DNA of 64,000 nucleotides, taken from assembly GCF_026210795.1 (NCBI RefSeq), contig NC_089438.1, forward strand, positions 1,509,501 to 1,573,500, written 5' to 3'. Origin of the DNA: Rhizophagus irregularis. Its lineage: Eukaryota > Glomeromycota > Glomeromycetes > Glomerales > Glomeraceae. The position numbers were made by a program, and so were the translations under genes. The notes under the pieces were generated by a model, which saw nothing but the letters and a program-made list of their open reading frames with translations, searched no databases and was not told where the DNA came from. How positions within the stretch are numbered: the stretch's first letter is position 1; each line of letters opens with the position of its first letter. This document shows positions 42,107 through 63,878 of this stretch, piece after piece.

Positions 42107-42229
42107 TACATCAGGAAATTTGTTTAGGCGTAATTTAGTGTAATATTTCGAAGGTGGTGTAAAATTTCGAAATATTACACTAAAAACGTAATATTATAAA
42201 AGTTTACGCTCTTACACAGGTCAAAATCG

Positions 42230-42520
42230 AGGCTATCGGTTGCATATCGGGTACCAGATATATGTAGGATATGTATATGATATGTATACGATATGCAACA
42301 ATTACACACATATCGGGTACCTGATATCTGTAATGTTTATGCAGAAGTTCGGTGATATATATTATAGATATCGTGCACATATTACACATATATCGGGTAG
42401 TATAATATCGGGCACATATCTTATACATGTCGTATAAATATCATATAGATATTGGTCAGTATAATATCGGACACATGTTATATAGATATCGGGTAAATAT
42501 AGGATACATATCGTACATTT
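42230..42520. repeat. left subterminal repeats of the 13-kb element
   Basis: At least ten occurrences of ATATCGGG(T/C)A or its complement, often extended to ATATCGGGTACC, occur within 300 bases. The right-end counterparts are at about 55150-55350. The same word fills the MITE at 35959-36237. Confidence 0.8.
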
Positions 42521-43780
42521 ATCTGACAATACGATAGATAATTTTTTCATATAATATTATAATTTAATCTGGGCAAAATTATAATTTCAGATTAATTTTT
42601 AATTTTAATTCGGGCTAAAGTAAAATTTTATTACACAAATTTTATTCTTATTTTCAATTAAATTAAAAGTTTTATTGTTTTTTAATTAATAATAAAAAAG
42701 ATTACAAAAAAATATATTATTCTATATAGCTATATAAATAATTAGATATCTGTTATCTACAAATGGCGCTTATTTTTATCTGTTTAATATTTAAAAGAAA
42801 GAAATAGTATTTTAGTAATAAAGATATTAGTATGAATAATGTATTCGTAAAAGAAAAAGAATAGTATTAAAAAAATGTTAGTAAAAAATGGTTAGTAATA
42901 GAAAATGTTATTAGTATGTTTAGTAGTAAAATATATTAGTAAAAACAAACGTTAGTAGGTTAGAAAAAAAGAAAATATAAATAAAAATTAGTAAAAAAAT
43001 ATACCTTTGTATTTATTTCACCTCTTTTTTTGAAGTTTGCTGTTTAAAGAGAAAATAGATTTTGTTAATTATTTTTCTTTAATAAATAAAAAAAATAAAT
43101 ATTTAAATTACCTTGATGTGCGTTACTCTCATATTCTTCTGAAGATATATGATTAGATCTTCTTTTTCTTGAGTTTACTATATATAAACCAAATTAATTT
43201 TTGATTAAATTTTTTTAAAAAGAATGCTTAGATTACCTTGATATGTGTTGCTTCCAAATTCTTTTGATTTAGAGTTTTTTTTCTTGAATTCGCAGATATA
43301 GGATTACCACCTCGACGCACAGTATCAAAAAATGTCCGCCCTTGATGTGGAAGGTACTTAGGAACCACCTCATCTCCCGATTAATGAGACCTTAAGTCAG
43401 GAGGCTAGCCTATCGGGTACAAGTACCCTACAACTTCATCCCTAGGTAGTCAAAAATCTCAGGTGGTTCCAGACCACAGCGTACTACATGATTAGTCTTT
43501 GGACATGTTGGGATTTGATAAGTGAGAGAAAAAATACTCCAGCGCCAGCGTTTTGTAAAGAATAATAAAATAATATTTTTAAGTTAGTTCTTTCTTTATT
43601 AAATTTTTGAAAAAGTTTTGTTTCTTAAAATCGTAAAAAAATGCTGGTTGCTACAACTGACGGACAACGACAAATTGTCAGGCTACCCCCGGACAAAGTA
43701 ATTGGAAGGCAGAAAATGTCATAAAATATCCAGCCCTATTTCATAACATTTTCCTCCAGGCTAAAGCAAATATTACAAAA

Positions 43781-43940
43781 GAAATTGCAAATATATTTAA
43801 CAAGCAATAGATACATGGCCGTTGAAAAATATATTCACACTTCATATTGTAATACCACAGTCTAACAAAGAAAGACAAGAAATTGCAAATATATTTAACA
43901 AGCAATAGATACATGGCCGTTGAAAAATATATTCACACTT
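43781..43940. repeat. 60-bp direct repeat, 98 bp apart
   Basis: The segment starting gaaattgcaaatatattt and ending atattcacactt occurs at 43781 and again at 43879, essentially identical. The two starts are 98 bases apart, so this is a recent local duplication. Confidence 0.85.
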
Positions 43941-45699
43941 ATACCACAAAGAAAGACTCAAACCACTATTGTAAAGAAAAATATGAAAAATACGCGTATA
44001 TCCTATTTTCATACCTTGCTTAACAGTTCCACTATTTATTTAAAAGAGAATTTTCTCTTTTTTGTATGTGGGTAGGGGTACATTTTTTCCTTTTTTTATT
44101 CTTTTCTTTTGTATATAGTAGATGAGTATGTCTTACTATATTAAATATATAAACTAAAGTGCCAAAGTATTGTTAATATTGTAAAAGATAAGTAAAGTAT
44201 ACTTGGATAAAAGAGAAAAGAAGAGACGAACCGTAAAGCGTTAATAAAAGATAAGTAAGAAGAGAAAAGTGTATTTTTGAAAATAAACAAAAAAAATCGC
44301 GCATTAATTTTAGATATCACATGTAATCAAAGCGATTTTAATTGGTTATTAATATACATGCATAAATGTCATGTGATTTTAGTGACGAAACTGTAAACCT
44401 GCGTAATATTACGGTTAAAATATTTTGAAAATTTACGAGACTGTAAACCTGCGTAATATTATTACTATTTGATCGTTAAAGCTGCGTATGCAGTAGAACG
44501 TATACAAGGGCATGTGATACTATTGAATAATCAAAAATAATATTAACACCTTTTCTTTTAAGTTTGGGAAAGCAGATTTTTTTATTATTTACAATTTTTA
44601 TGTTAAAAATTAAAGTAAATTCTAATTTTTATTATAACTTAATAAAAAATACACATTTGATACTTGTTCGCTACTATTTTACTATAAAATAGTATCCAGG
44701 CTGTACGGCATGAACGTCAGTATCAGTTACAGCCCAAAAAAACGTAAGTCTCCAGCCGATATTTGGTACGGACTGGGCCTAGCTATTCACTTAATAAATA
44801 AAAAAATAAAAATAATTATCTTCTTCTACGATACGTAGGTAAGTTTCTCCTTCTCCTACGATTGTCACGCGTAACTAAAATTGATCAAATTTATCAAATT
44901 TAAAATGTGAACGTAAAATAGAATGTAATATTAATTATAAAATTTTATTATAATATAATTACCTGGCCTCTTCCAAAATCTTGTTCTAAATTCATAATAA
45001 TATTTTTGGCCAGTACTCATTCACAGCTACTGCCAAATGTGGCAAAAAACTGGCTTTCTGTACAAGTTACAGCAACAGCTTTTGATCTGGTTTTGGTGAA
45101 GTGATGAATTTGAAAAAAAACCAATATTTTTTTGAATTCATTTATAAACATTTTTGGGAGTTTATACAAATCTTTACAAAAAATATTATATATACGTATT
45201 ATTGTATTACGCTAATTTAAACCTTTACATGTAAAACATTGGAAGATATCAACACTACTTAGATTTGTTGGTAAAATTGGAGTAGACAGTAAAATAATAG
45301 ATATTATATGAGAAAAATTTCAAATAATAAAAAAAACCAAATAAGAAATATACACAAAATATTAAAGATAATTTCTTTTTTTTTAAATATAATTAAAAAA
45401 AAACTTACTAAATACTCGGCTTAATATTTAACCAAATGGTTTGTTTCTCTATAGGAGAAATAGGTTTTTTATAAGAAATTTTTATATTTTAATAATATAT
45501 ATATATTTATACAATAATATCATTTTGATATTTTTTTGTAAAAATATTATCAATAATACCGGTTGAAGAATATTGTTAATATTGGTCATGAATCGTCACA
45601 CTATTGACCAACGGTAACGAAGAATCGGCTGATCGGACTAGTCAATTATGGTTTGTGTGCCAAATGATAATCTTTTTTAACTTTTTTCTTTTTTACTTC

Positions 45700-45965
45700 T
45701 TTTTTTTGTAGATATCGGCTTTTTGGATTGGTAATTTGAACGACCAGGCTCTTAAACGAACGAACCAAAATAAAGTTCGTTCTTTTTCTTTGTTTTTACT
45801 TCCAGGGAACGTAATTAACGTTCCCTTTTCTTTTTTTAGCGACCTGACGAACGAACAAGCCGAACACCCAGGAACTTGAACGAAACAAAGGTATGTTTCG
45901 TTCTTTTTTTTTTTAGACTTCAAGAGGAACGTAATTAACGTTCCTTTTCTTTTTTTAGCGATCTG
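45700..45965. repeat. two hairpin plus pyrimidine-tract plus AG units
   Basis: GGGAACGTAATTAACGTTCCC at 45805-45825 and AGGAACGTAATTAACGTTCCT at 45925-45945 are 120 bases apart. Each is followed by TTTTCTTTTTTTAG and then gcgaYctggacgaacgaac-type sequence. The design is the same as the array at 33.9-34.7 kb. Confidence 0.75.
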
Positions 45966-46195
45966 GACGAACGAACAAAAAAATTGGTGTATGGCAGTCT
46001 GCCAGATGATCAGTAATTGAAAGGGACCAATAAATTAATTAGCATAACGAAAACAATTTTTAAGAGCATTGGATATCATTTAAGGATCTTATAGAAAAGG
46101 CTTTAATTTTTAGCGGCGCTGAAAATTTTGATGATAGTCATGTATCAATTATTAAGTATTATTTGATTCTTGCATCAAATCATACTAATTTTATA

Positions 46196-46279
46196 TAATT
46201 ACAGAGATTTGTTGGGAAGATTTTGAAGCTCCGGAATGGTGCGTACCTATTAAAGCTAATGTATTAACATTTGAATGGG
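46196..46279 (+). pseudogene. isolated exon-like fragment
   Basis: An acceptor (ataattacag) is followed by an open stretch encoding ICWEDFEAPEWCVPIKANV and FEWD, then a good donor (GTAAGT). The reading sense looks protein-like (cysteines, tryptophans), but no flanking exons were found. It may be captured host or transposon sequence. Confidence 0.35.
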
Positions 46280-46908
46280 ACGTAAGTACCAAAATACAAG
46301 ATATTCAAAATTTTAGAATTACCACAAATATTTTTTGCTTGTAATTCTTATCAAAGTTACAGTTGCTAATAGAGCTCAAATTATTAATAATTATACATTT
46401 TAAAAATATTCCGCATTAAGTTTAGCATTATTTGAAGACTTTTTTATTTGGTAATACCCTCCCCTTAACTTTTCCTCGCCACTTTCATAAACGATAATAA
46501 ACGATTGTGAACAATAATAAGTGATATGATAGATTGAGGGTTGATCGGGTGGTGTGTGTATTAGTGATATTATAATCAATGGTGTATAACAAAAAGCTAA
46601 CAAATGATAATAAAATGATAATGATAATAAATGATAATAAACAATTGTGAAAAAATGATAGAAAATAAAAACTCATTCATTATTATCATCATCGACTAAA
46701 AAAGGAAAAGAAATTAATAAATTTTGTATTTACGACTAAAAAAGAAAAAAAAATTAATAAATTTTGTACTTACCATTTCGATCTTCTGTATTTTGAGTAT
46801 TCGTATTCGTATTTTGAGTATTCCGGCTCCCACGTGCTATAAAATATTAAGAAAATCAATAAAAATTTATAATTTGATTAAACTTTTATACTTTACATAC
46901 CATTCCTT

Positions 46909-47585
46909 CTATTGTTTCGTCTGAAGTTGAGTTTTATTAACACCAATTGAAGCCTGTACAAACTGATCGTCTAGAAACATATTAAATCATATTAAATAAA
47001 ACAATTTACCTCTTTAATATAATCATTTTGTTGATTATGTAATGTTGTTAGATTTAAAAGTTCTTACCTGGTTTTTCCCAAAACCGTGTATTCATGACTT
47101 CAAAATAAATGGCACCAGCACGGCTTCTTGCCCCTCTCGGATCGTTTGCAATCACTAATAATTGATCCTAAAGTATTAAGTGTTAAATAAGTATTAAAAT
47201 TACTATTACAACAAATTTTTATTAATATTTAACTCACGTGATAACTGGTCACTAATCCATTGAATTTTGTTTGGCACTGTTTGCCCGAATAATTGCTTCC
47301 ACACCTCTCATTTACTTTATTCGCAACGGAATTCCAGAATCTTTTTCTACTTCTTCCTGCAATTTGATAATGGTACTCGAAGTTTCTTGATCTCCGCTGC
47401 TCAATCAAAACTGCGATTTGGTCATCCGACCACTCCACCCGGCCGGAAGAATAAGTTATAGTGTCGAAAATGGAGGTAGTATTGACATTGATGGTATTGG
47501 TATCATTGACGGTGGTTGAATCAGTTGAAGATGAGGACATTGTTTGAAATTTTGTTAAAAAATTGTTTAGAATATTTGGAAACAT
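46909..47585 (-). CDS. SANT/trihelix (Myb-like) DNA-binding protein carried by the 13-kb element
   Basis: Three exons read as 47585-47238, 47167-47068 and 46970-46909 in consistent phase, giving about 170 residues. The N-terminal ~45 residues are Ser/Thr/Asn-rich. A second ATG at about 47540 could be the true start. The Myb/SANT-like fold is visible as VEWSDDQIAVLIEQRR, then YHYQIAGRSRKRFWNSVANK, then QCQTKFNGLV, with the spaced tryptophans/aromatics of a trihelix. A C-terminal block (AIYFEVMNTRFWEKP) parallels the FW block of the hAT-borne protein at 59713-60387. It lies ~0.6 kb downstream of the transposase on the same strand. Unlike its neighbours its frame is intact. A role in binding transposon ends is inferred. 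Confidence 0.72.
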
Positions 47586-48181
47586 ATTTGATAAAAAAAA
47601 ATATGTATTGATTATAAAAAAAAATATGTATTGATTATTAATTAGTATTGATTATCAAAAAAATGCGAGAAAGTTCTTGTAACAATTCTAATTATGCCAT
47701 TCAATTATCATGATATTACATCATTTCATTTTTTAATTATTAGTACAATTTTTAATGTAACACCATTTCAAAATGATTTTGTTGATTCATGATATTATAT
47801 CATAAAATTCACAAAACAGAGAATTCGTAAAACTCCGTCTCTTGTCCATTAAAAGTGATTAAAATGTCGATCTTCCATTGTTTTCCATCGTACAAAAAAA
47901 AAAATTAGCCATTAAAAGTGATTAAAAATTTTGTAAATTAGGTCCGGTATTATTCTTACGTAAAAATTAACATTTATTTATTACGACTTACTAATGCGAA
48001 AAAAAATTAATTAATTTTATTAATTTTACATCTTGGATTGATTTAATGTTAATTTTCAAAAGTTGAATTAATGTTGAGCGCGTTAAACGAATTCGTTGAG
48101 CAAAAATTATGCTTATGTAATACGCGATTAATAATTTTTCATTTGATGAAAGTCACGAGACATACTATCTTCTTGCTTATA
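47586..48181. other. spacer between SANT gene and transposase
   Basis: AT-rich spacer of about 600 bases with a duplicated aaaaatatgtattgattat word near 47600-47640. It should contain the SANT gene promoter and the transposase 3' end. Confidence 0.45.
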
Positions 48182-51100
48182 TTATACACGATTATCACTA
48201 AGCTTGAAATGGAAATCAAATGTGTCATCATTTTCTTTATTTGGTGTGGCATACTACAAGTTAAATCTTCTATTCAAAGGTATAATCGACAAATATTTTT
48301 GTTTTCCTACCGTAATATTTCTAAATTTTGTAGCTCGACATAATATCCTATGAACCGCTAACAGGGAATCACAACCTTCTTGAAAGTATTCAGCTTTCCA
48401 TAATTCGGTATTTGATATTTCTGGCTCCATAAAACTATGTTTAAACCGAATACTAAAAGAAGGTGCAGGTTTATACCACTTGACATATGCTAGGAGGTGA
48501 GTTTTCGTTCCTTCTGGAAATCTAAGGGCATGCTCGAAATAATATTGGACTTCACCCGGATAAGTGTCAACTGAATCATCATTAGCTGCTTTCCATTTTG
48601 CAAATATATTCGCATTTTTTTCATGGCGACCAGAAATCATAGATCCAAATATTTCGGCGCCAATTTGTAGTCTTGCATGCTGATTCATATGCAAATCCAT
48701 AAATCCTAACACATCTTCTTTTTCCTTTTCATATAATATTGCATACCATTCACATAGAAATCCTCGCAACTCCAAAGGCATAACGACATTGATATATGAT
48801 GGGTTAAGCATTTGGCCAGGTAATGGTTCAGTGCCATATATTTTGGAAACCATAGACGTATTATGTCTCATGAATAGAAAATGCTGCAGTTCCTCCCTTT
48901 CTGCTGTGATTGCTAAACTTCCTACAGCTTTTTTTGGTACAAGAAGATGGAGAGATTCATCTAGAAGGCCAGATGTCCATTTACATGATAAGTGATAATC
49001 CACCAAAGTGTTTTTAAGAACAATTTTCATTAATTCGGGTTCTATTTGTCGGTTACTATTAGGATATGATCCTAAATAACAGGAATTTTTTTAATAAAGG
49101 TACTAAAGACAATTGAAAGACACTGAAGTAAATTTACCTATATATCCATTAAGTCTTTCAAACGGGAAAAGCCAAAAACTATATATAGGACCATAATCAC
49201 GACAGCAATCAGGGATATGAAGTGCGAGATGTATATTGCTTGTTATAAATTCTGGTCCATATGTATATTCTATAAGGTAGGCCATATCTTTTAACCTCTC
49301 TTCGCCTCCTTCAAATCATCATCTGTAATAAATCTTGCTACTAAAAGATTACAAGCTCGAACAAAATGCCCCTAAGATCTTTCTATCATTATCATCTAGC
49401 ATATCCCATAATATAGATGTAGAATAAATCATAATAAAGGTCTTCCATTGATCAGCAGTTAAGTTAGAAAACCCATCATTTCCGATTGCAATCTTTGGAG
49501 GAATTACCAATGTCGAAGGTAAATCAATATTATCCATTCTGTTTTGTGCTACACGAAGTTGTTCCATAGTTAATTTTTTTTGGTTTACAAAAATGGATTT
49601 GATTATCCATTTTGCAACACCGAGAAAAAGACAATGCATAGGATCCACTACAGCAAATCGTATAGGATCCATGTATGGTAGGCGAAGCACTTCAGTCCAT
49701 CTTATACCATGTACTTTAAAATGTGCTTCTCTGGAGGACTTTGAGTTACATTGCAACCATTCGCGAGCATATTGTCTATGTAATAAAAGATCTGCAGGCT
49801 TTGTTACCCATTCATTATAGTCTTGCATTCCTCCGTAATGAGTTTTTCTAAATTCCTCGCTATAAGTGGTACGTTTATCACACCTATAGCATTTCATTAC
49901 TGCAGATCCATGACCAAATAACTTTCGTGTAGCTGGAGTATCAGATGATCCAACAATTAACGCAACTTTTATTTCTAAACCATTGGAAAATTGGTGAGTT
50001 TTTGGTACTTTCCACCCCTTCCAAAGTTCTAATAACTCATCTACAATAGGAGCTAGATAATGATTAATGCGTTCCAACCCTGCCGCTCTTTTGGTCCTGG
50101 TAAGAAACCCAAATATATAATATTTTCGGGCTTATTCCTTTCGACCTTGGAAGATTGCAAATAGACGCATAAATAGCGCCAGTACTATGCTGCGTGTAGG
50201 AGAATGGTTGGAACCAATCAAGATTAAGGAGAAGACCTAGATGGGTTGTGGCAGTCTCTGTTGTAAAAAAGGTACTACCATCAAATGGAAAATTTTTCCA
50301 TACCTTACCATCGTAAATATCTGAATAGATATTATTTTCGTTTCTTTGAGTCCCTGATAATTTTAACATGTTCTCAAAATCTGGTCATTGATATAAAATG
50401 CTCAATTGCTGACGAATGTTTGGCTTAGGATAAACCATGCGAGGTACCGCAATTGTTGCATCTTTATTTTTTTTGAGAATGGAAAGTGGATTATTGCATT
50501 GGTGATTACGACTTGATATTGGATTATTTGGATACTCTTTATACGGGCAATTCATTATAGCAACTTTTCCTTCTTCCTTATATGCAATAATATCTTTAAC
50601 ATTATGCAATTTATGGCAATCGGTACATGCAGCTAATTGCATTTTCGGTTGAAAAATGTTTAACCATATTTTTGCCATATATAATGAGGTAGGAAAATTT
50701 TCAAATTGCAACTTATCAAAGCGCATAAGAATTATATGAAAAAATTTTATTAAGGATTCAAGTGCAATATCAGGCAATCGAAATCTTTGTTGAAATTTAA
50801 ATAGCCATATTATAATCTCAGTATTAATAGAATCACTTAAGCTTTCCACTATAAATGCTTCTTCATTGTCATTGTCAATCTTAGGAGATGCGAAAAAATC
50901 TTCTACATCATCATTCTCCTCTCCTTCATCCACATCATCATTCTCTTCCTCATCCATATTATCTACATCATCATTCTCCTCTCCTTCATTCACATCATCA
51001 TTCTCTTCCTCATCCATATTATTTACATCATCATTCTCCTCTCCCTCATCCACATCATCATTCTCTTCCTCATCCATATTATTTACATCATCATTCTCTT

Positions 51101-51633
51101 CCCCCTCATTTATATTATCTACATTATAATTCTCACCAAAATAATTGATTTCATCATTATTTTCATCAATTGTAGGTGCTGGAATACGAAAACATGAAGG
51201 TTTTGATGAAAATAATGTTATATTTTCTTCAATATATTGGAAAGAAGGACCAGGATGGGAAGAGTCCTGATCTGGACTAGATGTACCGGAGTAATTATTT
51301 CTTTCTCGCTTTTTTGATATATTCAATTTTATTTCTGTATTTATATATGTATTATTAACAGATGATGTTTTTTTCTTTCTTATCGATGATGGTATTTTCC
51401 TGATTTTTTCTAGAATCTTTTGATCTCGATTCCCACAAACTATCATCATACGTATGTTTCTCTTGAGTGCGAGAATCAACTTCTGCACCTTTGCAACGAG
51501 CACAATTGCAAATATACAAATACTTTTTTTTGGGCTTTATTAAATCAGCCACAAAGGTTTCGGAGGTTTCAACTTTACGTTTTTTATTACTCTTTATTAA
51601 TCCAGATACAGAGTTACATTTTTTATTATTCAT
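48182..51633 (-). pseudogene. Tnp2/EnSpm-CACTA-type transposase, multiply frameshifted
   Basis: Read from 51633 down. The N-terminus has a Cys cluster (YICNCARCKGAEVDSRTQ), then an acidic minisatellite (50905-51120), then CTDCHKLH..CPYKEYP. Next come PFDGSTFF and LGLLLNLDWFQPFSYTQHS, then NHYLAPIVDEL. The core includes VALIVGSSDTPATRKLFGH, MKCYRCDKRT and FAVVDPMHCLFLGVAKW. C-terminal blocks are FITSNIHLALHIPDCC and FPFERLNGYIGK (49285-49103, an exon) and 49030-48254. Frames change near 51480, ~50385, ~50130 and ~50090. TAG at 48254 is followed by 23 further in-frame codons to a stop at 48182, suggesting a nonsense mutation. Domain order fits CACTA transposases. It is probably inactive unless the shifts are sequence errors. 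Confidence 0.77.
50905..51120 (-). repeat. acidic minisatellite inside the transposase
   Basis: A unit of about 60 bases is repeated between three and four times and encodes NNMDEEENDDVDEGEENDDV-type sequence. The complementary strand gives serine- or histidine-rich shadow ORFs. Confidence 0.85.
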
Positions 51634-51946
51634 TTTTATTAAAATGTATAAAATATATTTTTTATTCTATCACTTTTAATAGTTAGTAATCAAGACGTTC
51701 GAAACGAGCTTTTAATAATTCTTATCATACATAAGAATTGCACAAGAATTTTATGAGCGCGTTACTTTTACCTGGTGAGAATTGCGCAAACGCGTTGCTA
51801 CCTCTGAGCCCTTGATCTGCATCCTGAAATCTCTGAAATCATTATAAATTTGCACACAAACAACTTTTCTCGCGTTCTGAAATCTCTACTTTATACGGGA
51901 TTTTTTTATTTTACAAAATAACAAAAAGATTTTATACTTCGTAACA

Positions 51947-53130
51947 ATGAATAGTGATAATGTATCATCTAGTGATGAATCATCCTCCTCCTCCTCCTCC
52001 TCCTCCTCCTCTTCTTCTTCTTCTTCCTTTTCTAAAAGTTCTTATAACACGATAAAAGCAAGTATTTGATTATTTTATATATTATTTCTGCTTTTATCCT
52101 ATTTACATTTATCTATTATTTTACAGAAAGAAGTGTTTATTTGGAGCCGACTCCGAGCTAAAAGACGTATACAGTATTAACTATGAGCTCACATGGGCTG
52201 AGCAAAAAGATAACATAGTCACCAAGTTGCTTCCACCACTTTACAAACTCGTAAATAAAAAATATAAAGTCTCAAATAGTGATTTATTAAAGATGTTATA
52301 TGGACGTTGGTGATCTCGCCATCGCGTTAGTAATATTAGAAAGCAAGGGGAAGCCCAAATAAAACGTAACAAAAGAAGAGCAATGAAGAATTCAAGGATG
52401 CAGGATGTAAATTATTTAATTAACAGAAGCTATTAAATTTAGTTTTTTTTTTAAATTAATTATATTGTGCTTTATAATTAACATTGTTAGAAAAAAAAAG
52501 AAGAACAAACGCGGCCAATTACCTAATACAAAACAAAGATAAGTACATTTGCCGATATCCTGAAAAGGATCTAGTTCAAATTTTAAAAGATTCAGGCTAC
52601 CATTCCGAAGAATGGGAGGAAACCGACGAAGATGATGAAGATGATGAAAATGATGAAGAAGAAGTAGTCACAAAAAAAAATTCGATATATATTTATGAAA
52701 GATGGTGGAGATCTCCTGCTGTATGTATATTTTATTATTTTTTATCAAAGTATAAACACTAATTTATAGTTTAATTTCTTTATTTAAGCTTCAACGTTTA
52801 TTACATAATCGTATTGATCCAACGGTAGAGTTATTAAGGAAAAAACCACCAAACTTAAAATGTAAAAGAGTTCTAGACAAAACAGAAACAGTTAGTGTGC
52901 CACCTGCCGGCGCACCAAGCTGGTGTTTGAATAGAGAAGCACTTGAAAAATTCAACCGTTTAACCAAAAATATCCCGGTTTATGATTATGATACTGATGA
53001 AAGCATCATTCAAGACAACAATGGTGCCGATGATGATGTTGATAATAACGTCGTAAATAACAAAAATAACAACAAAAGGAAAAAAAAGAAAAATAAATCT
53101 AAATCAAAAAATAAAAAATCAAAAAAATAA
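51947..53130 (+). pseudogene. TnpA-like accessory protein of the 13-kb element
   Basis: Divergent from the transposase with only 314 bases between starts. Putative exons are 51947-about 52070 (MNSDNVSSSDE then a long serine run), about 52125-52406, about 52484-52720 and 52791-53130. The second encodes ELTWAEQKDNIVTKLLPPLY and SNSDLLKMLYGRW. The third encodes NAANYLIQNKDKYICRYPEK and an acidic DEDDEDDEN block. The last encodes PPAGAPSWCLNREAL and a Lys-rich tail. I recall such Ser-rich/PAGAPSW proteins beside Rhizophagus transposases. In-frame TGA at 52311-52313 interrupts RW.SRHR, and the first splice does not hold frame, so it is probably broken. Confidence 0.55.
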
Positions 53131-54105
53131 ATTTTACAATTATTACACTTTTGCCTAAATAGGTTTATCGTCAAAAATACTAATCAGACTTTAATAAAAA
53201 TCAGAATTCAAACATTTTCATTTAATTTTTTTAAAAATTGATTGATTAAATTAAAAATATCATGGTTTGATAAAGCTATAGATTACAGTTTATTTTTATT
53301 AATAAACAAGTTACGGTATTGATTACTTTATTACAGTAACAATTTAATTACGGATAAGGTATTTAATAAGATATCAAAAACTGATTAATAAAATTTTCTA
53401 TATTAACATACGATAAATTAGATTAATAAGCTAAATACGATAATATTATTTTTTCAAAAAAATTAAAATGAAAATATACACAAATTTTTGTTTTTGGTAT
53501 GTAAGTCAAATTAAATTACTATATGCTTAAATCATAACTCATAACCCAAAGTTGAGGATTAACCGGGTACCTTGCTTTAGATTCAGCGACACTTCCCAAG
53601 TCAGATGAGGTGCCAGCAGGTACGCTTTAAGAAAACTCGCTATGATAATAAGGATAAGTATATTCGAAAATACCAGATATGAATAAACATAGGATACGAT
53701 GAATAATCTCAAATAGAAAAATAAAAAATAAAAAAATAAAATAAAATAAAATAAAAATATAAAAAATAAAATAAAATAAAAAAAATATTTTCAATTAGAC
53801 AAAGCATCCTCGTTCCTTCCTGGAATTCTCATTTGACTAAATTATTATTGTTTGTAATTTGATCCATTTGAATCCACCATAAATTGCCAGACAGGGCGAA
53901 CCCTTATTAGACAATTATAGCTTCATCACCAAATGGCTGCGATGTGTTTAATGATATGGCAACCTGTTTAATTCATTTTTAAATGAGCAAACGTGGCCAT
54001 AAAACTCATTAAAAAGGTAGGCTACAGAGTGCAATGCAACCTACCTAACCTAACAAGTAGGTAAGGGTTAGGGAATAAAATACACCCTAAACCCATGCAG
54101 TTGGT
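53131..54105. other. non-coding right part of the 13-kb element
   Basis: AT-rich, with a simple (AAAAT/AATAAA)n stretch at about 53716-53790. Around 54030-54095 there are taacctaac / ggttaggg words, too few to be a telomere repeat. No gene was recognised. Confidence 0.5.
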
Positions 54106-54369
54106 ATGGAAATAAAAGTTTACAAACGGAAGTTTCAGACTGTGCCTGACGACAAAATGGGTGAGGTGCAATCAGGACTTTTTCCTCTAATCCAGCCCGG
54201 AATTATAGAGGCAACATTGTTATCGTACAAAGCACATCGACGAAAACGTCTCTCAAAGAAATTAATCAATAAAGAGTATACTTGGGCAATAGCCGATCTT
54301 CATCGTCACCCTATAAACTCCAAAAGGACAGGGATCAGCGCAGGCATTTTGGCTTACGTATCTCTTTAA
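54106..54369 (+). CDS. small ORF of unknown function
   Basis: An 87-codon ORF (MEIKVYKRKFQTVPDDKMGE...) with less AT than its surroundings and many Lys/Arg/His residues (YKAHRRKRLSKKL). No relatives are recognised, no introns were seen, and it lies inside the 13-kb element. It could be a captured gene fragment or chance. Confidence 0.3.
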   Translation: MEIKVYKRKFQTVPDDKMGEVQSGLFPLIQPGIIEATLLSYKAHRRKRLSKKLINKEYTWAIADLHRHPINSKRTGISAGILAYVSL

Positions 54370-55149
54370 AGATTAATTAAATTGAAAGATAGGATCCAAA
54401 TTCAATATGACTGAATCGATCGCCTCCGGTTATCAAACTTCCATCAGAAGTGATCGCTAGAATCAAAGATACCAATAATCACCCTTATCAGTAACGATCG
54501 AACTAAAGATGTTAGAGAAATAAAATCCGTCATTTATATGGAATTAGTTTGTATTACAATTTTATTACGATTTGGGTAAAAAAAATATCTCCTTAAAATT
54601 TATTTTTTTTCAGGTATCCTGGCTATATGGAAAGATTCCTAATATGGTAATAGTACAATACACCTTATACGCCATTTTGCAAATTCAGTGTAATAGTTTA
54701 CAAAGAAAAAAAGGGGAACGTATTTATTTTTTTGCCATGAGAAATTTAATTACAATAAGTGGATTTCAGAAAATCGCGGTAATTTGAATAATTTGTATAT
54801 GCTTTTGATAACGGGTTTGAAGTTTAGGTATTCTCTGGCCGCACTCTTGTATTACTATGATCACTGAGAGTTGGCTTATATAATAATCTTATCATTCAAT
54901 ATTTCCTAAAAAAGTAAATAAACATCATCTATTTATAAGTATTCATGATTTGGAAAAACTCCGTATGAAGTTGTGAAGATAAATGATACTTGGATCAAGC
55001 ACTCCATAGCAATTATCTTTTTTCGTACACTGTATTACATTTTTACAAAGTACAAAGCGTACAAAGCCAATACCAAATAGACAGAAATCAGTAGCTGTTT
55101 TCTATACTACGATAATATTAAATAAACACACAAATTTTTTTAAAGATCG
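54370..55149. other. non-coding stretch inside the 13-kb element
   Basis: Short AT-rich open stretches without recognisable homology (for example 54572-54787). No repeat or RNA gene was found. Confidence 0.45.
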
Positions 55150-55360
55150 TACAAATATCGGTGACCGATATATATTAGATAACGGATCGGTGACTAATAG
55201 TTTGGATATCGGACACTTGGTAATTTACATTTTTTTAACCATATTTGAAATTTGCGCATTATGTGACAAATCGGGTACCCGATATGTTGTTAATATGTAA
55301 AAATGCCCGATATGTACCTAATTAGTCACCGATATATAGGTACCCGATATGTGTGAGATA
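55150..55360. repeat. right subterminal repeats of the 13-kb element
   Basis: Multiple ATATCGGTGACCGATAT, TCGGGTACCCGATAT and GGTACCCGATATGTG words lie just inside the CACAGGTC end, mirroring the left end. Confidence 0.78.
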
Positions 55361-55878
55361 GATCGTTTTTTGACCTGTGTTAAATTTGAATAATTATAGT
55401 AATTTAAGAATATCTCGCTATCTACTGATCCAATCAAGACGATCTATAGCTCATTGGAATCAGCTTATCAAGACGAATCGAATGGTAGTAAAATCGTATC
55501 TTTACGTTTGATAGATGACTTTCTATTAATTTCAAACTTTACTGCATACTATAGAGCGTTCTATCAACTGTAGAAATGCGATTTTACTACCATTCGATCC
55601 GTCTTGATGAGCTGATTCCAATGAGCTATAGATCGTCTTGATTGGATCAGTAGATAGCGAGATATTCTTAAATTACTATAATTATTCAAATTTAAGAGTG
55701 TAAACTTTTGTAATATTACGTTTTTAGTGTAATATTTTGAAATTTTACACCATTTTCGAAATATTACACTAAATTACACCAAAACAAATTTCCTAATGTA
55801 ACATATATATATTAATTATAAATATTTAATATATTATCAAGGAACGTAAATATCTATTTAATTACTGTTTTCAATAGA

Positions 55879-56537
55879 ATGCATCATTTAGATTTGGATT
55901 TATTTTGTTATCAAATTATCTTCACATGCGACATCTTAAAATTGCAACATATTAATGGTAATAAATTAGTTGAAGAAGTAAATCGCCATCTAGCAACAAT
56001 TTCACGTTTTCTTGGCATTAAAATTTTTTTCAATGGACTGCAGTCAATTGCAAGATTAACTGCTAATGAATATCGAAGTTTGATGAAAGTTATGGTATTT
56101 GTTATTGATAATTTATATGATGAAAATAATAACGAAGCAGATAATTTTGTAAATAATGATGATCTTGCGAAATTGTATAAATATTGGAATAAAATGTATA
56201 TTTTAAGTAGACATGAAAAATTTAGTGAAAGTAACTTAGAGAAATTTAAAGTATGTGTTAAAATTTTAGTAAAATTGAAAGTTTAAAATAATAAATTAAA
56301 TTAACGTTTAAAATTTAGGATGCAATACATAGATGGGCCCAGATGTTTGTTAAGGCTTTTAAATTTGTTTCTCCTTCCAATTTGAAGTTGCCTAAATTGC
56401 ATTTATGGGTTTATTACATTATTGACTCAATACGATCTTATGGTGCAATAAATAGCTATACCACAAAAACTTACAAAAGTCTTTACAAATATTTCGTTAA
56501 AATACCTTACCGAATTAACAATAAAAACGATGCGTAG
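55879..56537 (+). pseudogene. Plavaka-type transposase, C-terminal part
   Basis: Encodes MHHLDLDLFCYQIIF, ISRFLGIKIFFNGLQSIARL, NEYRSLMKVMVFVIDNLY and LAKLYKYWNKMYILSRHE. After a break at about 56284-56310 it continues with MFVKAFKFVSPSNLKLPKLH, SIRSYGAINSYTTKTYKSL and FVKIPYRINNK. These are the conserved C-terminal blocks that follow FWDLPYV in intact relatives, so this is the continuation of 41532-42106. It ends in a stop at 56535-56537. It is separated from the central part by 13.7 kb of nested insertions. Confidence 0.72.
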
Positions 56538-56541
56538 AATT

Positions 56542-58010
56542 TTGGAGAGGTTTAAGCAGGCAACCTTAATATATGTGATAATATTTTTTTAATTGACTAC
56601 TGCATGATTAGTAGACACAAGATTCTGGACATTACATATATAATTCATAACTAATCTGCATGAATTTAGCACTTTTTACTTATGCTAAAATAAACTTAAT
56701 TTGCTAAAAATCAAATTATCCCATTTTAAATTTATACTAATTTGCTAAAACTCAAAATATGAGTTATAGTAAAATTCTAAATAATATAGGTTTAAATTTG
56801 CTTAATAAAATATAATTTCAGTTTATTCAAATTATTTGTAAATTAGTAAATTTAATTGTTAATTTACTGAAATTAACAGTCTTTTTTTTTTATTATCAAT
56901 AAAAAAATAAATAATTAATATAAATTAAACTGGCAATTTTTATAATTTATAATTAAAAATATGTAGATTATAGATAAAAATAATAATTAATAAAGATAAT
57001 AAATTAAATATAAATAATTATTAAAAAATAAAATGTTGCAAAATTAATCAAACGGGTTTTGACCTGCATTATGCTTAATTTTGGCTAGAATTATACTTAA
57101 TTTTAGTCAAAATATAACCTGAACTCCAAAACTTATATTTTTAAAAATATTATCTATAAAAGTTAATAAAAAAAATTTTAAAAAAGAATTTGCTCAAATA
57201 TAAAATATGACTTTGTAAAATTAACACAATTTGCTAAAATTCATAATTATGACTATTAATTAATTTTCAATCAATTTGCTCTATCTAAAATTATGAGTTT
57301 AACCTAATTTTGATTGAATTTGCTAAAACTCAAATGTGAGTTATATATGTGATATCCAGAGTTCTGTAAATACATATGTCCAGAATTTTTGATTAATACT
57401 TACTAGTGGACATGCATGTCTAAAATTTTTCTTATAAAACTATAAGTGCTGTATGACTGCTTATCAAATAAATTAAACTGTCTCTCATTGATCATCTTGT
57501 AATTTGAATATTGCTAAAGAACTAGAGTGATACCTGTGATACAAATTTTATATATACATTAGACGATATAAAGTTAAAAATTCAATTCTCATATCAAAAT
57601 TTGCCTCAATTTAATGTGGGCGTGTGGATTTTAATTTTATAAAACAAAAAATTTTAAACCAATAAAATTTGAGATTTTATATTGTAAATTGTATTATGTA
57701 TTTATTATGTATTGATTTACATATCAAGTTAATTCAAGTTTTTAGTTCAATTTTCATACTACGATTTATGAACAATTTAATAAATACAATATGAATTAAG
57801 CGTGAGAATCATTTTTAAATATATAAGTCATAAAGATCTTTGGCAAAAAAAAAATACTTCTTAAATGAATTTATAAAGCAAATATGCATATTGTATATAT
57901 TATGATATTAGAAATTAAACAATCATTTCGATTTCCTTTTTTAACTGCACCTCTTATAGAAAATTGCATATATGAAAAATTTAAAAAACGCGTTAAAATA
58001 TATTTTCTTC
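56542..58010. other. AT-rich region with AATTTGCTAAAAYTCA-type repeats
   Basis: Between about 56690 and 57330 the word atttgctaaaa(t/c)tca recurs with tatgagtt. No gene or transposon ends were found. Confidence 0.45.
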
Positions 58011-58800
58011 AACTTTGTATGAATTCATTTTTTTCTTGAATATACCATTTGCAAATATTTGCATCTCTAAAAGGTCACGAGTACTCCATGATTGGTATAT
58101 CCATTTTCTTTCTAGTTATGAAATGTCATTAAAAGATTTTTTTATAAAGCTTGTTAATAAAGAAATATCTTTTGAATGCAATATTACTGTGACAAATTCT
58201 GAAGAAATAGAACGTATCGAGTTAAGTGAGGCACTAACTGTTCCTGCAACTTAAACTAGTCTTAACTAGTTAACTGTAATATTATAGAACTTACGAAGGA
58301 TGTAGGAATATATATACATTACCAACTCAAAACTGATATTACAACAACTACTCCAGCATCACAAAACGGCTTTGCAATTTTGATGCAAAATGTATGCAAA
58401 TCTAAGTTGTATTTGGCAATATTTTCACAATCAGGAAATCATAAGCAAACACTGCGTAATGATCTTGTTGATTGAATTTACAATAATGGTGAAGGATAGT
58501 CTACTTAATCATATAATAACACACAAAAAAAGGAATTTATTGTTAGCTTAACTGAAGCAATTTAGTATATTGATATGCGTAGTCACAAGAAACTTGAAGA
58601 ACGTAGTTTTCATATACCTAATATCTTCCTTGAGTTTTTGACTGTGCAAATCCTAAATCACATAAGCATTTCTGAAAACTCTTTGATGCAAATGAATTAA
58701 ACTTACATTACTAATCTCTTGCTCCATTTGCTACATCGTCATAAATACTAATAGCGAATTTTGACTAGCTCTGTGGTGCATTTGACAATTTTATTGTTAC
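58011..58800 (+). pseudogene. degraded coding sequence, family not identified
   Basis: The longest open part (58015-58254) encodes SLKDFFIKLVNKEISFECNI and EIERIELSEALTVPAT. The following ~500 bases keep protein-like blocks in shifting frames (ITNSKLILQQLLQHHKTAL, CKMYANLSCIWQYF, NHIITHKKRNLLLA). This looks like an old gene, possibly transposon-associated, that has lost its frame. Confidence 0.45.
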
Positions 58801-59377
58801 CATTTCAAATTATACTGGATATCTTCAATGATGTCATCGTAATTAAAGCTGCCACCTGAAACTATTTCCTAATTCCGAAATAATTTTGGCCAAAATTTTA
58901 TTTCTGAAACTAATTCTGAAATTCCAAAATTCTTCCAAAATTCCAAAATCTTTTCAAAACTCCTGAAATTGTCTGAAACTTCTAATTGGCCTATTATAAA
59001 ATCATATGACTATATGGGCTGATTTGTCTTGTATTTGACTTAAGGTAAAGATTCATATTTAAGAACCTATTTATAGCTTGGTAGTCCAATGTTGACCAAC
59101 GACTACCATCCAACTGGTGTCAGTAGGCCAAACCTTTTTATCACTACAACTGCCATTTTAGTTTGACCTCAGAATAGTCCCTATCCATCAACGGAATACT
59201 AATTGGCTAGCTATAACCCCTACTCATCCTATATCCATATTAGAGGCAAGACAAGCTCGAATTTATATGCCACCCTGGCATGTCTTAGTAATGGAAGACT
59301 TTCAGTGCAGGTGTAATGGCAATCATCTAGAAACCCTTCCGTACCAATATTCACACTTCAGAACTGAACTAAGGCTC
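58801..59377. other. repeat-like flank of the hAT element
   Basis: A TTCCGAAAT / CCAAAATT word-rich part (58850-58985) is followed by a less AT-rich part. That part continues beyond the hAT element at 63879-64000, so it was one unit before insertion. It is perhaps part of another transposon, with no ORF recognised. Confidence 0.4.
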
Positions 59378-59712
59378 ACTCAAGGTAAGGTTGCTTGCCG
59401 AAACTAGAGGATTTCGGCAGAATGGCGTACGCGAAACTGCCGAAACTAGTTTCGCAAAATCATCAAGAAATGCCGAAACTGCGAAACTTATCAAAATCGT
59501 GAAACTGCCGTAACTTGCCGAAACTGTTTCGGCGTTTCGGCAATACTTTCTATATGATTTAATTAGAGTTTCGGCATTTAAACAATTTATAAGAATAAAG
59601 ATTAAAGACAATATGATTTTTTGTATGTAAATATTTATTTTATAATATTTAATATTAAACTAATAAAATACACGATTAAAAATATAATAAAAATTAAAAT
59701 TTAATAATATCT

Positions 59713-60387
59713 TTATCTTCTATGTGGGGACCTGCTTCTACCTTTTCTTCTATCTCTACTTCTGTCCCGTCTTCTATCTCTACTTCTATCTCGTCTTCTA
59801 TCTCTACTTCTATCTCGTCTTCTATCTCTACTTCTTGATCTACTTCTTAATCGAGACCTAGATCGCGACCTTCTTCTTTCCCTTCGCAATCTATATTCAT
59901 ATCGACGTCGATCATGCGCAGCATGCTGCCGTCGATATTCTCGTCTAAACAGATCTAAAATCCAATAAAAATATTAATGAATTGAATGAATTGCCTAAAT
60001 AAAATTAATTTAAAATAATAATTAATAATAATTACCGGTTTGTAACCAGAATTCATCGTTCATATCAGCAAAACACGCTCTATCGAAACTATTTGGGCTT
60101 ATAATAGGAATGTCGTCATCATTATTATTTATTATTTTACTGAGGTTTTCATAACCTCGTTTGAAGGCATTCCATTTTGTTTGGCATTGCCTGGGTGTCG
60201 CTGCAAATCCCGTTGCAACGAACACCCTATTTGCTATTATTGTCCATGCATTTACATGATGACGGTTTGCAATTCTTTCGAATTGCTGATGTAAGTTTCT
60301 CCGCTCCGCGATTAATTGCCTAGCTGCGTTAATCGTCCATTGGAATACTGGTGGTGGCGGTGGGACAAAAGGTACTAATGCTGCCAT
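59713..60387 (-). CDS. SANT/trihelix protein with RS-rich tail carried by the hAT element
   Basis: Two exons, 60387-60036 and 59954-59713 (donor GTAATT, acceptor TTTTAG, phase 1), give about 197 residues. After a proline-rich start (PFVPPPPPVF) comes a Myb/SANT-like trihelix: WTINAARQLIAERR, FERIANRHHVNAWTIIANRV, RQCQTKWNAFKRGYENL, then DEFWLQT. The second exon encodes a basic segment and a run of RSRSRSR and RDRRRDRSRD repeats like the RS domains of splicing factors. It shares layout and key residues (RR, A-R, W..IANKV, QCQTK, FW) with the SANT protein at 46909-47585. The frame is intact, unlike the transposase. Binding to the transposon ends or coupling to RNA/nuclear speckle factors is inference. 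Confidence 0.78.
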
Positions 60388-61056
60388 TTTTTATTTTTAT
60401 GATTTTTTTGTAACTTGAAATTTGAAAATTAAATACAATTTGAAAATTAAAATACAATTTGGTTTTGAATTGCGAAAAAAAAATTCAAATTTCATAATAT
60501 TTATAATAATTTTAAAATTCGTTATAATGTTTAAAACATGAACTGATGAACATAATAACATTCTACATAATTAAAGTATTTGTAACAAAATAAACACAGT
60601 TTTGATTCTAATGTAATAAATTTAATTAACGCAGTTCTAAATTTTTTTTTGTAACGCAGTTCTTAAAATTTATTGATCTAATGTAATAAATTTAATTAAC
60701 GAAGTCCTTAAAACTTATTGATTCTAATATAATATGCTTATCCTTATTCCTTAATTAAATTGCACTATTTTTAAAATATAATATGCTTATCCTTATTCCT
60801 TAATTAAATTGCACTATTTTTAAAATATAATATGCTTATCCTTATTCCTTAATTAAATTGCAATGTTTTAAAATATAATATAAAATTACAATTGCCTGCA
60901 TTGCCTGCATAATTATATGTTAACTGGACTTTGATCGCGAATATTTTGCCCTGCATAATTACATCATTTATTTCCTAAATAGTATCATTATTTAAATCAC
61001 ATGATATTAGAATTAATTCTCATTGGATTAACTATTGTAATTATTTCTCATTATTA
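60388..61056. repeat. spacer in the hAT element with a ~57-bp tandem repeat
   Basis: AT-rich spacer between the two hAT genes. Between about 60730 and 60880 the unit ataatatgcttatccttatt followed by ccttaattaaattgca recurs three times in tandem. An earlier word (ttaattaacg(c/a)agt) also repeats. The SANT-RS promoter should be here. Confidence 0.7.
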
Positions 61057-63356
61057 TTATTCCTCATTATCATCATAATTATCGTCATTATTATCACCGT
61101 CATCCATACCTAATACATCATCTATATCATAATCATAGTCACCTTCTCCGGGTCTCTTGTTATTACCACTATCATCAACTTCATCATCTTCCGCATTATT
61201 TTCATCTGAATCATCCAATATATCTCTTGGAATATCGCCGATTTCACTAGTAATTGAATCATGCGATAAATTAACAAATTGATCAATCCATAGACTTTCG
61301 ATTACTACACGGCAATTGTCTTCAGGTATTGTTTCGCCGCTTGTAGTTAATCTCTGAGTAGAAGCTTACTCCTCATTATATTCCTCATCGTCATCTTCTG
61401 CAAAAGCTTCTGCAATACGTATATTGATCTCATCATCACTAAGACGAGTATTCTTTTTTTGATCAATTCCATAAAATCCAAGTTCAGTTTTTGAATTGGA
61501 TTTCCAATACAAAATTAATTTGCACATGGATTCTAGTTTATCCACATTAAGATTTAAGCGACGTTTATGAAATAGCCATCCTAAAGTCGAAAATCCACGT
61601 TCGCAAGTTGCTGAGTTAGGACATATTGCAAATAGATAACTTGCAATTCTTGGCAGGACATCTGGTTCTGGTTCGGTATTAATATATTTCCACCAATTCA
61701 CGGGATTATCTTTAGCAAAACCGATATCTAGGTCAAATGGCTCTTGCTCATTAATATATTTCTGTATTTGATCACATAAAGTTTCAGCTTCGTAACGGTC
61801 GAAACCTAAATTTTTCCCGATTGAAGCTACACATTTGATAATTCTCATGAGGACGCATTTTTTAAGTGGCGCGTTTCTAAATCTGGGATCCATAAAAAAA
61901 CAAGTAATATACTTATCATCATCGAATTCATCAAATCTTTCATTTATTACTTTGATACAATGACTTCGGAATGCAGGATTTAATGATTTGGGTAACTTTT
62001 TTAATGTAGCTGCAAGTCTTGCCAAGCTCAGGAAACAATCTGCAAGTGTAGCTCTTCTCGATTCTAATGAAAGTACCGCTTTTTTTAGAGGATCCAGAAC
62101 AAATCCAAGAACTCGTAAATTTGAAAAAAAATTTCTCGATTGAATAATCAGTTTTATTTTATCATTTGTTAGCACTTTATCGTGATCGCTGGCCATTTCT
62201 TCTAGTGCTAATTCCAAATTTATTACTGAATTTACGGATTCACTAGCAGTAGTCCAGCGTGTCTTGCAATATAATTTTAATCCTCCTCCACTAATTCCTT
62301 TTTCTTTAATTATTTGAGCAAGTTTTGCATTAGCCTGATGAGAACTTCTAAAAAAGGTTGTCAAAATATTAACACGTTTTAATAAACGTTCCCCAAACTT
62401 CTCCTTGACGATGTCGCATGCAATTAAATTGATAGAATGTGCAACGCATCGCACATTCTCAATCTTTGGATGATTCTCATGTATAATTTTTCGTGCATTA
62501 CGAACATTGGCCGCATTATCGGAAACTACAGCACATATTCGATCTTCTCCAATACCTTCTATAACCTTTTCAATTACCGTAACTAGATATTCTGCAGTGT
62601 GCGAATTTTCAGACAAATCAGAAAGTTGATAAAGATATTCTTTACGCGACGGAGTCATTACAATGAAGTTCCAAATTGAACGATGTGTACCAGACGTCCA
62701 ACCATCAAAGGCTAAATTATAAATTAATATTATATAGTAAGTAAGATTAAATAAAAATGACGTATGATAGCCTATTTAATTTAACAAACCTAACGTTAAA
62801 TTCGTTTCCTTTTCAAGCTCAGAATTAACTTTGAAGTTCACTTGAGCTAATTCACGTTCAAGTAGTTGATTTACTAATACTTCCCTTGTTGGTGTATTGT
62901 ACCCGGCATTAAGCTCTTTTATAAAATTGATGAAAAAGGGATGTTCCACTACTCTAAACGCAATTCCGCACGCAATAAAAAATTTAACTAATGCACGATT
63001 AATTCGTGTACATCTTTGTTCGTTAAGCTCTGTTGAATCATGGTAATCATCCATGTTACTTTGACCTTCAGAGTATTTTCTTTTTTGACGACTTGGACTT
63101 GATCTTGCCGTTCCATTACTTTAGTCATATACCTTCTAACAACTGCTACTGGCGCATCTGGACAATGGTTTGAAAGATGCTCTTCGAGCTTTGAAACTTC
63201 ACCGCATGACCATGTATTCTTACAGTACTTGCAGGAGGCGGCAAATTTGCCAGAACCAACAGCTTCTCCTTTATTAATATCTTCCCAAATGCTATTAGGT
63301 GGCCGACCTCCTCTATTTTTCATTTTAATGGGTGAATCTTCTATGTGATCAGTCAT
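61057..63356 (-). pseudogene. hAT transposase with BED zinc finger, one frameshift and one internal stop
   Basis: The start ATG is at 63356. A BED-type finger (FAASCKYCKNTW, KLEEHLSNHC) is at about 63150-63260. The frame changes in an A-run near 63118-63121, and the second frame supplies a basic SRQKRK segment. An intron (62792-about 62713) leads to the catalytic exon with FDGWTS (first Asp), CAVVSDNAANVRNA (second Asp region), VRCVAHSINL, KTRWTT and the dimerisation/glutamate block NSATCERGFSTLGWLFHKRR. A TAA at 61366-61368 is followed by 103 more in-frame codons, strongly acidic, to a stop at 61057. The original protein was therefore probably longer. Length and motif order fit hAT/Ac transposases. 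Confidence 0.88.
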
Positions 63357-63870
63357 TTGAAACAGTTTATTATTAATATTATTATTAAGAAAACGGAAGA
63401 AAGTAAAAGAAACTTTAGTTCGGTGTTAAAGGAGATGACGGAATTGGGTTTATTAAATGCATGTTACGCATTTTCCTTTAATGAATATAAGCCCCTTAAA
63501 AAAAAACTGTAAAAACGTGTAATATCATAATATTAATATGGGAGTTAGAAATGAAAATTCTAACACTAGATAAAGCTTAAAAGAACTAAGACGACGGTAA
63601 AATATTGAAGTTTAATCTTTTATCTGTAGATTATTTGATCATCTAAATTATATTATTAATTGGTGTAACTTAGCGTAACTATATGCAAATCTTATGATCC
63701 AACTACGTCCGAACTACGGAGAAAACCTATTATATAGGTTTGCTTTGGCATGTTTCGGCAGTTTCGCAATTTCGACAGGTTTCGCAGTTTCAGCGTTTCA
63801 GCGTTTCGGCACTATATAAGAGGTTTCACCTTTCGGCATTAGGCCAAACAGGTTTCGGCAAGCAACCTTA
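63357..63870. promoter_or_regulatory. hAT right-end region: transposase promoter and subterminal repeats
   Basis: Upstream of the transposase start. The distal 130 bases carry eight or so TTTCGGC / GTTTCGCA words reaching the terminus. No specific promoter box was recognised. Confidence 0.55.
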
Positions 63871-63878
63871 ACTCAAGG

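Follow-up and report, generated by a model that had tools for sequence, protein, structure and literature searches.

Trihelix (SANT) genes of two clades in hAT, CACTA and Plavaka-like transposons of Rhizophagus irregularis, and the replacement of one clade by the other

We followed up two predicted SANT/trihelix genes that lie inside two unrelated DNA transposons, a CACTA-type element and a hAT element, in a 64,000-nucleotide stretch of the Rhizophagus irregularis genome (NC_089438.1, positions 1,509,501 to 1,573,500; hereafter the window), which is C10:1509501-1573500 of the searched genome of 146.7 Mb in 32 contigs. Genes of this kind are regular components of one hAT family and one CACTA family, they fall into two clades, A and B, that do not follow transposase type, and in a third, Plavaka-like family a clade B gene has clearly been replaced by a clade A gene. 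We propose, with a probability of roughly 0.7, that the SANT gene is a selected, exchangeable DNA-binding regulator of its transposon. On this view the window genes are two members of a wider set of trihelix accessory genes that transposons carry in the R. irregularis genome. Each is kept in its own transposon, where, next to the transposase gene, it presumably supplies a helper that binds DNA in a sequence-specific way. The SANT gene and its flanking non-coding DNA would form a cassette that is gained, lost and replaced across transposon superfamilies, probably by capture or recombination.

The two window elements comprise the following features, in which splice sites were inferred from GT/AG signals and from relatives and the SANT gene models are predicted:

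42215-55379, minus strand: CACTA-type element of 13165 bp, CACAG...CTGTG, defined by its ends and the target site duplication (TSD) TTA
48254-51666, minus strand: CACTA tnp2 transposase region, broken in the window copy (Transposase_21, E 1.5e-7)
47238-47540, minus strand: SANT-A exon 1, trihelix domain of clade A (PF13837, E 2.2e-10 for the spliced protein)
47068-47167, minus strand: SANT-A exon 2, FW block (alignment and translation)
46909-46970, minus strand: SANT-A exon 3 (translation)
59386-63870, minus strand: hAT element of 4485 bp, with the terminal inverted repeat (TIR) TAAGGTTGCTTGCCGAAAC at 59386 and 63870
59378-59385, no strand: left TSD of the hAT element, ACTCAAGG
63871-63878, no strand: right TSD of the hAT element, ACTCAAGG
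61057-63425, minus strand: hAT transposase gene, broken in the window copy (DUF659, Dimer_Tnp_hAT and a weak BED finger match)
60036-60387, minus strand: SANT-B exon 1, trihelix domain and FW block of clade B (PF13837, E 3.3e-9)
59713-59954, minus strand: SANT-B exon 2, RS-rich tail (translation)

The larger element shows the tnp2 transposase, CACNN ends and 3-bp TSD of the CACTA superfamily, and the smaller one the transposase domains (DUF659, E 4e-21; Dimer_Tnp_hAT, E 2.4e-5), short TIRs (19 bp) and 8-bp TSD of the hAT superfamily. As an earlier note made from the window sequence had described, a SANT gene is present in both elements, ending at 46909 and 59713. Each gene lies inside its element's ends, on the minus strand and downstream of the transposase, and PF13837 (Myb_DNA-bind_4) scores 37.5 bits for SANT-B exon 1 and 41.3 bits for spliced SANT-A against a curated cut-off of 27. 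The sequence blocks named there as common to both proteins (W, LI..RR, AN(K/R)V, QCQTK(F/W)N and then the FW block) are real, and a trihelix followed by an FW block is found in both clades wherever the second part was read. AlphaFold2 predicted four helices for SANT-B exon 1 (19-43, 47-59, 65-87 and 100-111), with a mean predicted local distance difference test score of 62 and a two-row alignment with SANT-A as second row; a Foldseek search of this low-confidence model against the PDB gave a best E of only 1.4. The contrast which the same note drew between intact SANT genes and broken transposases applies to the two window copies and does not extend to their families, since the hAT transposase frame is open in other copies and the CACTA tnp2 frame is open in the L009 copy (854 aa).

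All counts of hAT, CACTA and Plavaka-like loci given here are among the matches listed (in one search, for example, 91 of 949 candidates were scored), with rows sorted by identity band and neighbouring rows merged into loci. Within the hAT family, SANT-B lies between the TIRs in 7 of 7 copies examined, the window copy and six (L001-L006) picked among copies with open frames, and perfect 8-bp TSDs flank the element at seven sites. Of 65 hAT transposase loci of at least 68% identity, 61 have SANT-B downstream on the same strand at a distance of no more than 9 kb, and the other four have none. The CACTA family behaves alike: SANT-A lies downstream on the same strand, mostly about 1.8 kb away, in 23 of 25 tnp2 loci of at least 83% identity, and one of the two remaining loci, on C29, has a clade B gene instead. 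Outside this family association, 22 of 86 SANT-B loci are without a transposase match within 9 kb. Two of the more distant hAT relatives (45-66% identity), L007 and L008, possess TIRs and TSDs and have no SANT gene inside. A clade-A-like SANT gene on the minus strand (L007 208-780) was noticed about 1.3 kb left of the SANT-less L007 element, outside its TIRs.

All-against-all comparison and alignment yielded the two SANT groups, A with the gene of the window CACTA and B with that of the hAT element. Clade A is carried by the window CACTA, by L014 (the element type of L040), by L015 (Transposase_21) and by L016 (weak tnp2), clade B by hAT, by the 13-kb Plavaka-like loci L011, L012, L038, L040 and L043, by L013 (Transposase_21) and by the sister CACTAs L018-L023. 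Further members are L017, L034 and L044 in clade A and L039 and L032 in clade B, where no carrier transposase was recognised. The transposase pieces of L013, with a B gene, and L015, with an A gene, are 40-56% identical. The clade of the SANT gene does not follow the type of the transposase beside it. The hAT SANT-B protein is 44% identical to the clade B type of the sister CACTAs (E 9.8e-22), 37% to the L011 type (E 5e-16), 31% to L013 (E 5e-16) and 29% to SANT-A of the window CACTA (E 1.8e-4). The earlier view of the window genes as a pair common to two superfamilies thus has to be given up: there are two clades, each in several transposon types, and SANT-B is closer to other clade B genes than to its neighbour. 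The resemblance to the sister-CACTA and L011 types, together with the existence of hAT relatives without SANT, fits a gain of the gene by hAT.

In the tree, support is 75/94 for clade A and 91/83 for clade B, and a 95/98 branch sets A and B apart from host-like SANTs and one Harbinger SANT. The best tree leaves both sampled Harbinger SANTs of R. irregularis outside A and B, and one of the two has a very long branch. That the two window proteins align better with each other than with other trihelix proteins is borne out with respect to the host-like SANTs of this genome and is left open for trihelix proteins at large, since the plant GT-1 domain joins A. Three trihelix genes or domains in tandem were additionally observed at L042 2619-3643, outside any recognised transposon.

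The hAT version of the gene also occurs in a Helitron-linked repeat. At L037 and L045, SANT-B lies with one hAT end and without the hAT transposase in a repeat of 5.6 kb that is 97% identical between the two places, and the adjoining stretch of 3.7 kb, 99.6% identical, encodes the greater part of a Helitron_like_N protein (E 1.5e-16). At L052 as well, SANT-B and one hAT end were seen in a repeat beside a Helitron_like_N gene. The same arrangement may hold for the remaining SANT-B loci that lack a hAT transposase, 2 of the 22 having been read, and it is possible that this Helitron-linked repeat acts as a vehicle for SANT-B.

The exchange itself is clearest in the Plavaka-like family, where a single replacement of B by A has taken place. 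Among 45 transposase copies at least 84% identical to L014, 24 have a B gene upstream on the same strand, 10 an A gene upstream on the opposite strand and 11 none; both genes together within 7 kb were found in none of the 45. In the group at 72-82% identity, B is present in 15 of 18 copies and no SANT in the other 3. The A and B labels were set by the query giving the match, six B places from the PF13837 list being assigned by hand, and their sequences bore out the clade of all 10 A copies and of 5 of the 24 B copies. Apart from L014 and L055, which were read directly, the A copies are 75-95% identical to the L014 SANT gene. Between L014 (A) and L040 (B), identity is 96.8% across the 2.9 kb of the transposase flank and 93% across the 2.3 kb of the other flank, where the second accessory gene lies; the middle segment of 2.3-2.9 kb is not alignable. 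The same break points recur in another pair, L055 (A) and L056 (B), except that 72 bp next to the right junction still align at 78%; across the middle segment L055 is 96.7% identical to L014. The flank tree comprised two A copies and six B copies, with the all-B L011 group as root, and the A copies form a single clade (100/99) alongside the B copies (99/97). Since the A copies are one clade and the outgroup is all B, it follows that B was replaced by A once and recently, and that the new form then multiplied.

A difference between sister families would also arise without any transfer if A and B had been present together in the ancestral elements and one of them had been lost in each lineage. 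We consider such a history unlikely, because no copy with both genes was detected among the 45 Plavaka-like and 50 CACTA loci, because the whole middle segment differs between L014 and L040, with B and A on opposite strands, and because an all-B outgroup with one A clade asks for no more than a single change from B to A.

The Plavaka-like element starts with CTTTACAG and ends with CAGCAAAG in L011, L014 and L040, the last base differing in L011. A 2-bp TSD fits three of four copies (AT in L014, TT in L040, TA in L012, and not L011), which leaves the superfamily of this element open. PF18759, the mark of Plavaka, was not found in the transposase of L011, L014 and L040, whose joined pieces gave no Pfam family; we take the element to be Plavaka-like from sequence motifs. 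Two side observations concern the same element (L011 6804-7457; L014 1235-2363): it has another accessory gene, and the L014 transposase gives a weak BAH match (E 0.049 in a search at E up to 10).

A second A/B difference separates the window CACTA from a sister group, whose transposase is 79.8% identical to that of the window at the DNA level. Among 25 sister loci with tnp2 at 70-82%, 11 have a B gene on the same side and strand, 3 an A gene, and in 11 none was detected. The ends of the sister elements are homologous to those of the window element (82-86% over 1.5-1.9 kb in L070 and L071), the SANT part is not alignable between the two groups, and the similarity of the window DNA to the sister element L010 stops at the transposase end, at 48255. 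As L016, a more distant tnp2 relative, has an A gene, B may be the newcomer in the sister group. L010 was the first sister examined and had no SANT gene in the stretch examined; a SANT-less sister group, assumed from this copy alone, is ruled out by the clade B genes in other sister loci. In the C1 sister copy, a 97% match to the window over the terminal 1.9 kb had been taken for the copy's own end. L070 and L071 rule this out: the stretch adjoining the 97% piece is 98% identical to L070, and the piece itself is additional and of the window type. The opposite side of the C1 copy showed no terminal repeat. Behind this copy, two adjacent copies of a CACTA terminal region were observed (L050, L021 and L051 joined, 11203-14979).

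The role of the SANT protein can be approached from the element ends. The closest known precedent, PIF/Harbinger, would make it a cofactor of transposition, binding to the element ends and recruiting the transposase, in line with the trihelix domain, with the constant position beside the transposase within each family and with the Harbinger Myb-like protein, which binds TIRs and helps nuclear import (PMC9179366, in excerpt). Six R. irregularis Harbinger transposases indeed have a SANT gene within 2 kb, as judged by eye, and the CACTA ends did diverge between A and B carriers, as such a cofactor would allow. However, Plavaka-like copies have the same ends whether they carry A or B: one end of L014 and L040 agrees at 98.5% over 600 bp, and the opposite end at 93%. 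In hAT the ends are likewise shared by copies with and without SANT, the SANT-less L007 having the same 19-bp TIR and GCCGAAAC repeats as the SANT-bearing element. The two proteins, A and B, differ too much for a single common site to be expected. Since the ends are unchanged while SANT changes or is absent, the comparison speaks against SANT setting terminal specificity, and a regulator whose target is able to travel along is favoured over a terminal-specificity factor; we consider the cofactor role possible but less likely than not. Binding to the terminal repeats, which the earlier note had suggested assaying, therefore appears unsupported wherever ends can be compared.

A regulatory role would have SANT act on the element that carries it, through the element's promoter or its chromatin, in the manner of TnpA or VANC, and SANT would probably act in trans. 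The most specific version is an anti-silencing or activator function of the VANC/TnpA kind, with its target in the non-coding DNA of the swapped cassette, for example in upstream tandem repeats. It draws on the inclusion of flanking non-coding DNA in the exchanged segment, on tandem repeats of at least 60 bp within 500 bp upstream in 6 of 11 loci as against 15% of 680 control windows, on the fast-diverging tandem repeats that are the targets of VANC (PMC10398659, in excerpt) and on the CG methylation reported for R. irregularis transposons (PMC8647823, in excerpt). The window hAT element contains one repeat array:

60726-60881, no strand: 49-bp tandem repeat, 3.2 copies, between the hAT transposase and SANT-B

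The excess of repeats has to be read with care, since it comes from few loci with a threshold that was not preset and is thus exploratory, and the genome is rich in simple repeats; in one of the six repeat loci, L016, the repeat lies inside the reading frame, and for L021 the upstream sequence covered was 230 bp. We regard anti-silencing or activation as a real possibility that falls somewhat short of even odds. Two extensions are put forward tentatively: the trihelix genes with their own non-coding target repeats might be self-contained regulatory cassettes circulating among hAT, CACTA, Plavaka-like elements and Helitrons, and the regulator might perhaps be swapped, with transposase and ends kept, for instance to escape silencing or to separate an element from sibling copies.

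Selection was assessed by the ratio of nonsynonymous to synonymous substitution rates (dN/dS, Nei-Gojobori). Clade B is clearly under purifying selection, about as strong as that on the transposase. At dS of at least 0.19, dN/dS is 0.11-0.16 between hAT copies and Helitron-linked copies, 0.12-0.16 between L011 or L012 and L040, and 0.02-0.06 for exon 2 of the sister-CACTA genes (four pairs, 50 codons), compared with 0.08-0.24 for transposase pieces at dS above 0.4. Close clade B pairs, with few changes each, scatter at 0.13, 0.24, 0.25, 0.26, 0.49 and 0.51, and two further SANT pairs were saturated. The hint of selection in the earlier note is therefore borne out for clade B and stays at one pair, with 0.65, for clade A. 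These values bear on the simplest alternative, that SANT genes are passengers, host trihelix genes captured by chance and functionless for the transposon. Such capture is common in transposons, SANT-B also occurs in the Helitron-linked repeat, and purifying selection is established for clade B only. The tight linkage in hAT (61/65) and CACTA (23/25), the low dN/dS in clade B, the replacement of one SANT by another and the position of the sampled host-like SANT genes beyond the 95/98 branch speak against it, and we hold it to be very improbable.

Several observations weigh against the proposal of a selected, exchangeable regulator. The clade support is only moderate, and the approximately unbiased test neither shows nor rejects a single clade of A and B together (p 0.154). 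The plant GT-1 domain and a Harbinger SANT on a long branch group with A and not with the host-like SANTs. While the search of further copies, a check named in the earlier note, found the gene kept in its families, no SANT lies downstream in any of the 8 hAT relatives at 45-66% identity, and L007, with its open transposase frame of 559 aa, shows that the gene is dispensable in that lineage. Absence is itself to be read with reserve, as the counts of loci with none, being among the matches listed, may hide SANT genes. The ends of the sister CACTAs have diverged about as much as the transposase, one beginning with CACTG instead of CACAG, so that the CACTA ends do not decide the role of SANT. Ratios for close pairs with few changes are higher than those of the more diverged pairs: 0.51 (3 changes) for SANT-B of the window and L001, 0.25 (10) for L011 and L012, 0.24 (4) and 0.49 (6) for two sister-CACTA pairs, 0.65 (8) for the only clade A pair and 0.41 (13) for the L014 and L040 transposase. 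With the single clade A pair at 0.65, purifying selection is established for clade B only.

The surroundings of the window CACTA hold further features. It contains a second accessory gene, oriented divergently:

52478-53130, plus strand: second CACTA accessory gene, also in the relative L010 (7163-7903)

A conserved SIYIY..WWRSP motif was observed in both copies of this gene. Nested insertions were noticed around the element (41656-42030, 42097-42214, 55380-55810 and 55822-56286). It lies inside a repeat resembling a miniature inverted-repeat transposable element (MITE), with 118-bp inverted arms and a 149-bp foldback. Plavaka-like coding pieces flank the CACTA element on both sides and resemble, by eye, neighbouring pieces in L007; MITE and CACTA seem to have split a Plavaka-like gene.

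Taken together, similar helpers occur in hAT, CACTA and Plavaka-like elements, and one family replaced its helper between flanks that are more than 90% identical. If confirmed, this would imply that the evolution of transposon accessory genes can follow a modular course, with exchange between superfamilies. The two variants of a single transposon, A and B, are each multi-copy within the same genome and would lend themselves as a natural pair to the question of the helper's role. As in the earlier note, which knew of no such genes in hAT or CACTA, our literature searches, with subscription papers and Repbase reports outside their coverage, found no report of SANT genes in these superfamilies and none of SANT exchange. 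The words SANT and Myb are absent from the main text of the R. irregularis transposon studies PMC11075540 and PMC8647823. The parts of the system are known, their distribution is new, and the replacement process was not found described in these searches.

By sequence, the best structural counterparts of SANT-B over the trihelix are chains of plant GT-1 (PDB 2JMW and 2EBI), with weak E of 0.09 and 0.13 and a matched stretch that stops before the FW block. GT-1 is a host transcription factor. Among transposon proteins, TnpA of the CACTA element En/Spm, which binds subterminal repeats, is not known to be of the trihelix type, whereas the R. irregularis SANT is a separate gene of the Myb_DNA-bind_4 family. 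Like SANT-A, TnpA is a second product of a CACTA element, and it activates Spm in correlation with demethylation (PMC10398659, in excerpt). The VANC proteins of VANDAL elements are transposon-encoded and bind the fast-diverging non-coding tandem repeats of their own family (same excerpt), a likeness to SANT that would lie in function. PIF/Harbinger, Nuwa and Pangu likewise combine a DDE transposase gene with a separate trihelix Myb/SANT gene (excerpts of PMC9179366, PMC4482050 and PMC12730594), and four groups within the Harbinger superfamily typically have such a second gene (PMC4482050, in excerpt). The transposases described here are in contrast hAT (DUF659/Dimer_Tnp_hAT), tnp2/CACTA and Plavaka-like, not DDE_Tnp_4, and none of the 42 genome matches listed for PF13359 (DDE_Tnp_4), some of them pieces of one gene, lies in the window. 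In fish Harbinger elements the trees of the two genes are largely congruent, with rare recombination (PMC9179366, in excerpt), in keeping with a single ancient association, whereas SANT and transposase trees of R. irregularis are not congruent. The distribution of one kind of accessory gene over several lineages of fungal DNA transposons has its closest parallel in the TET/JBP dioxygenases (PMC12730594, in excerpt), with an enzyme as the shared component there and a predicted DNA-binding protein here.

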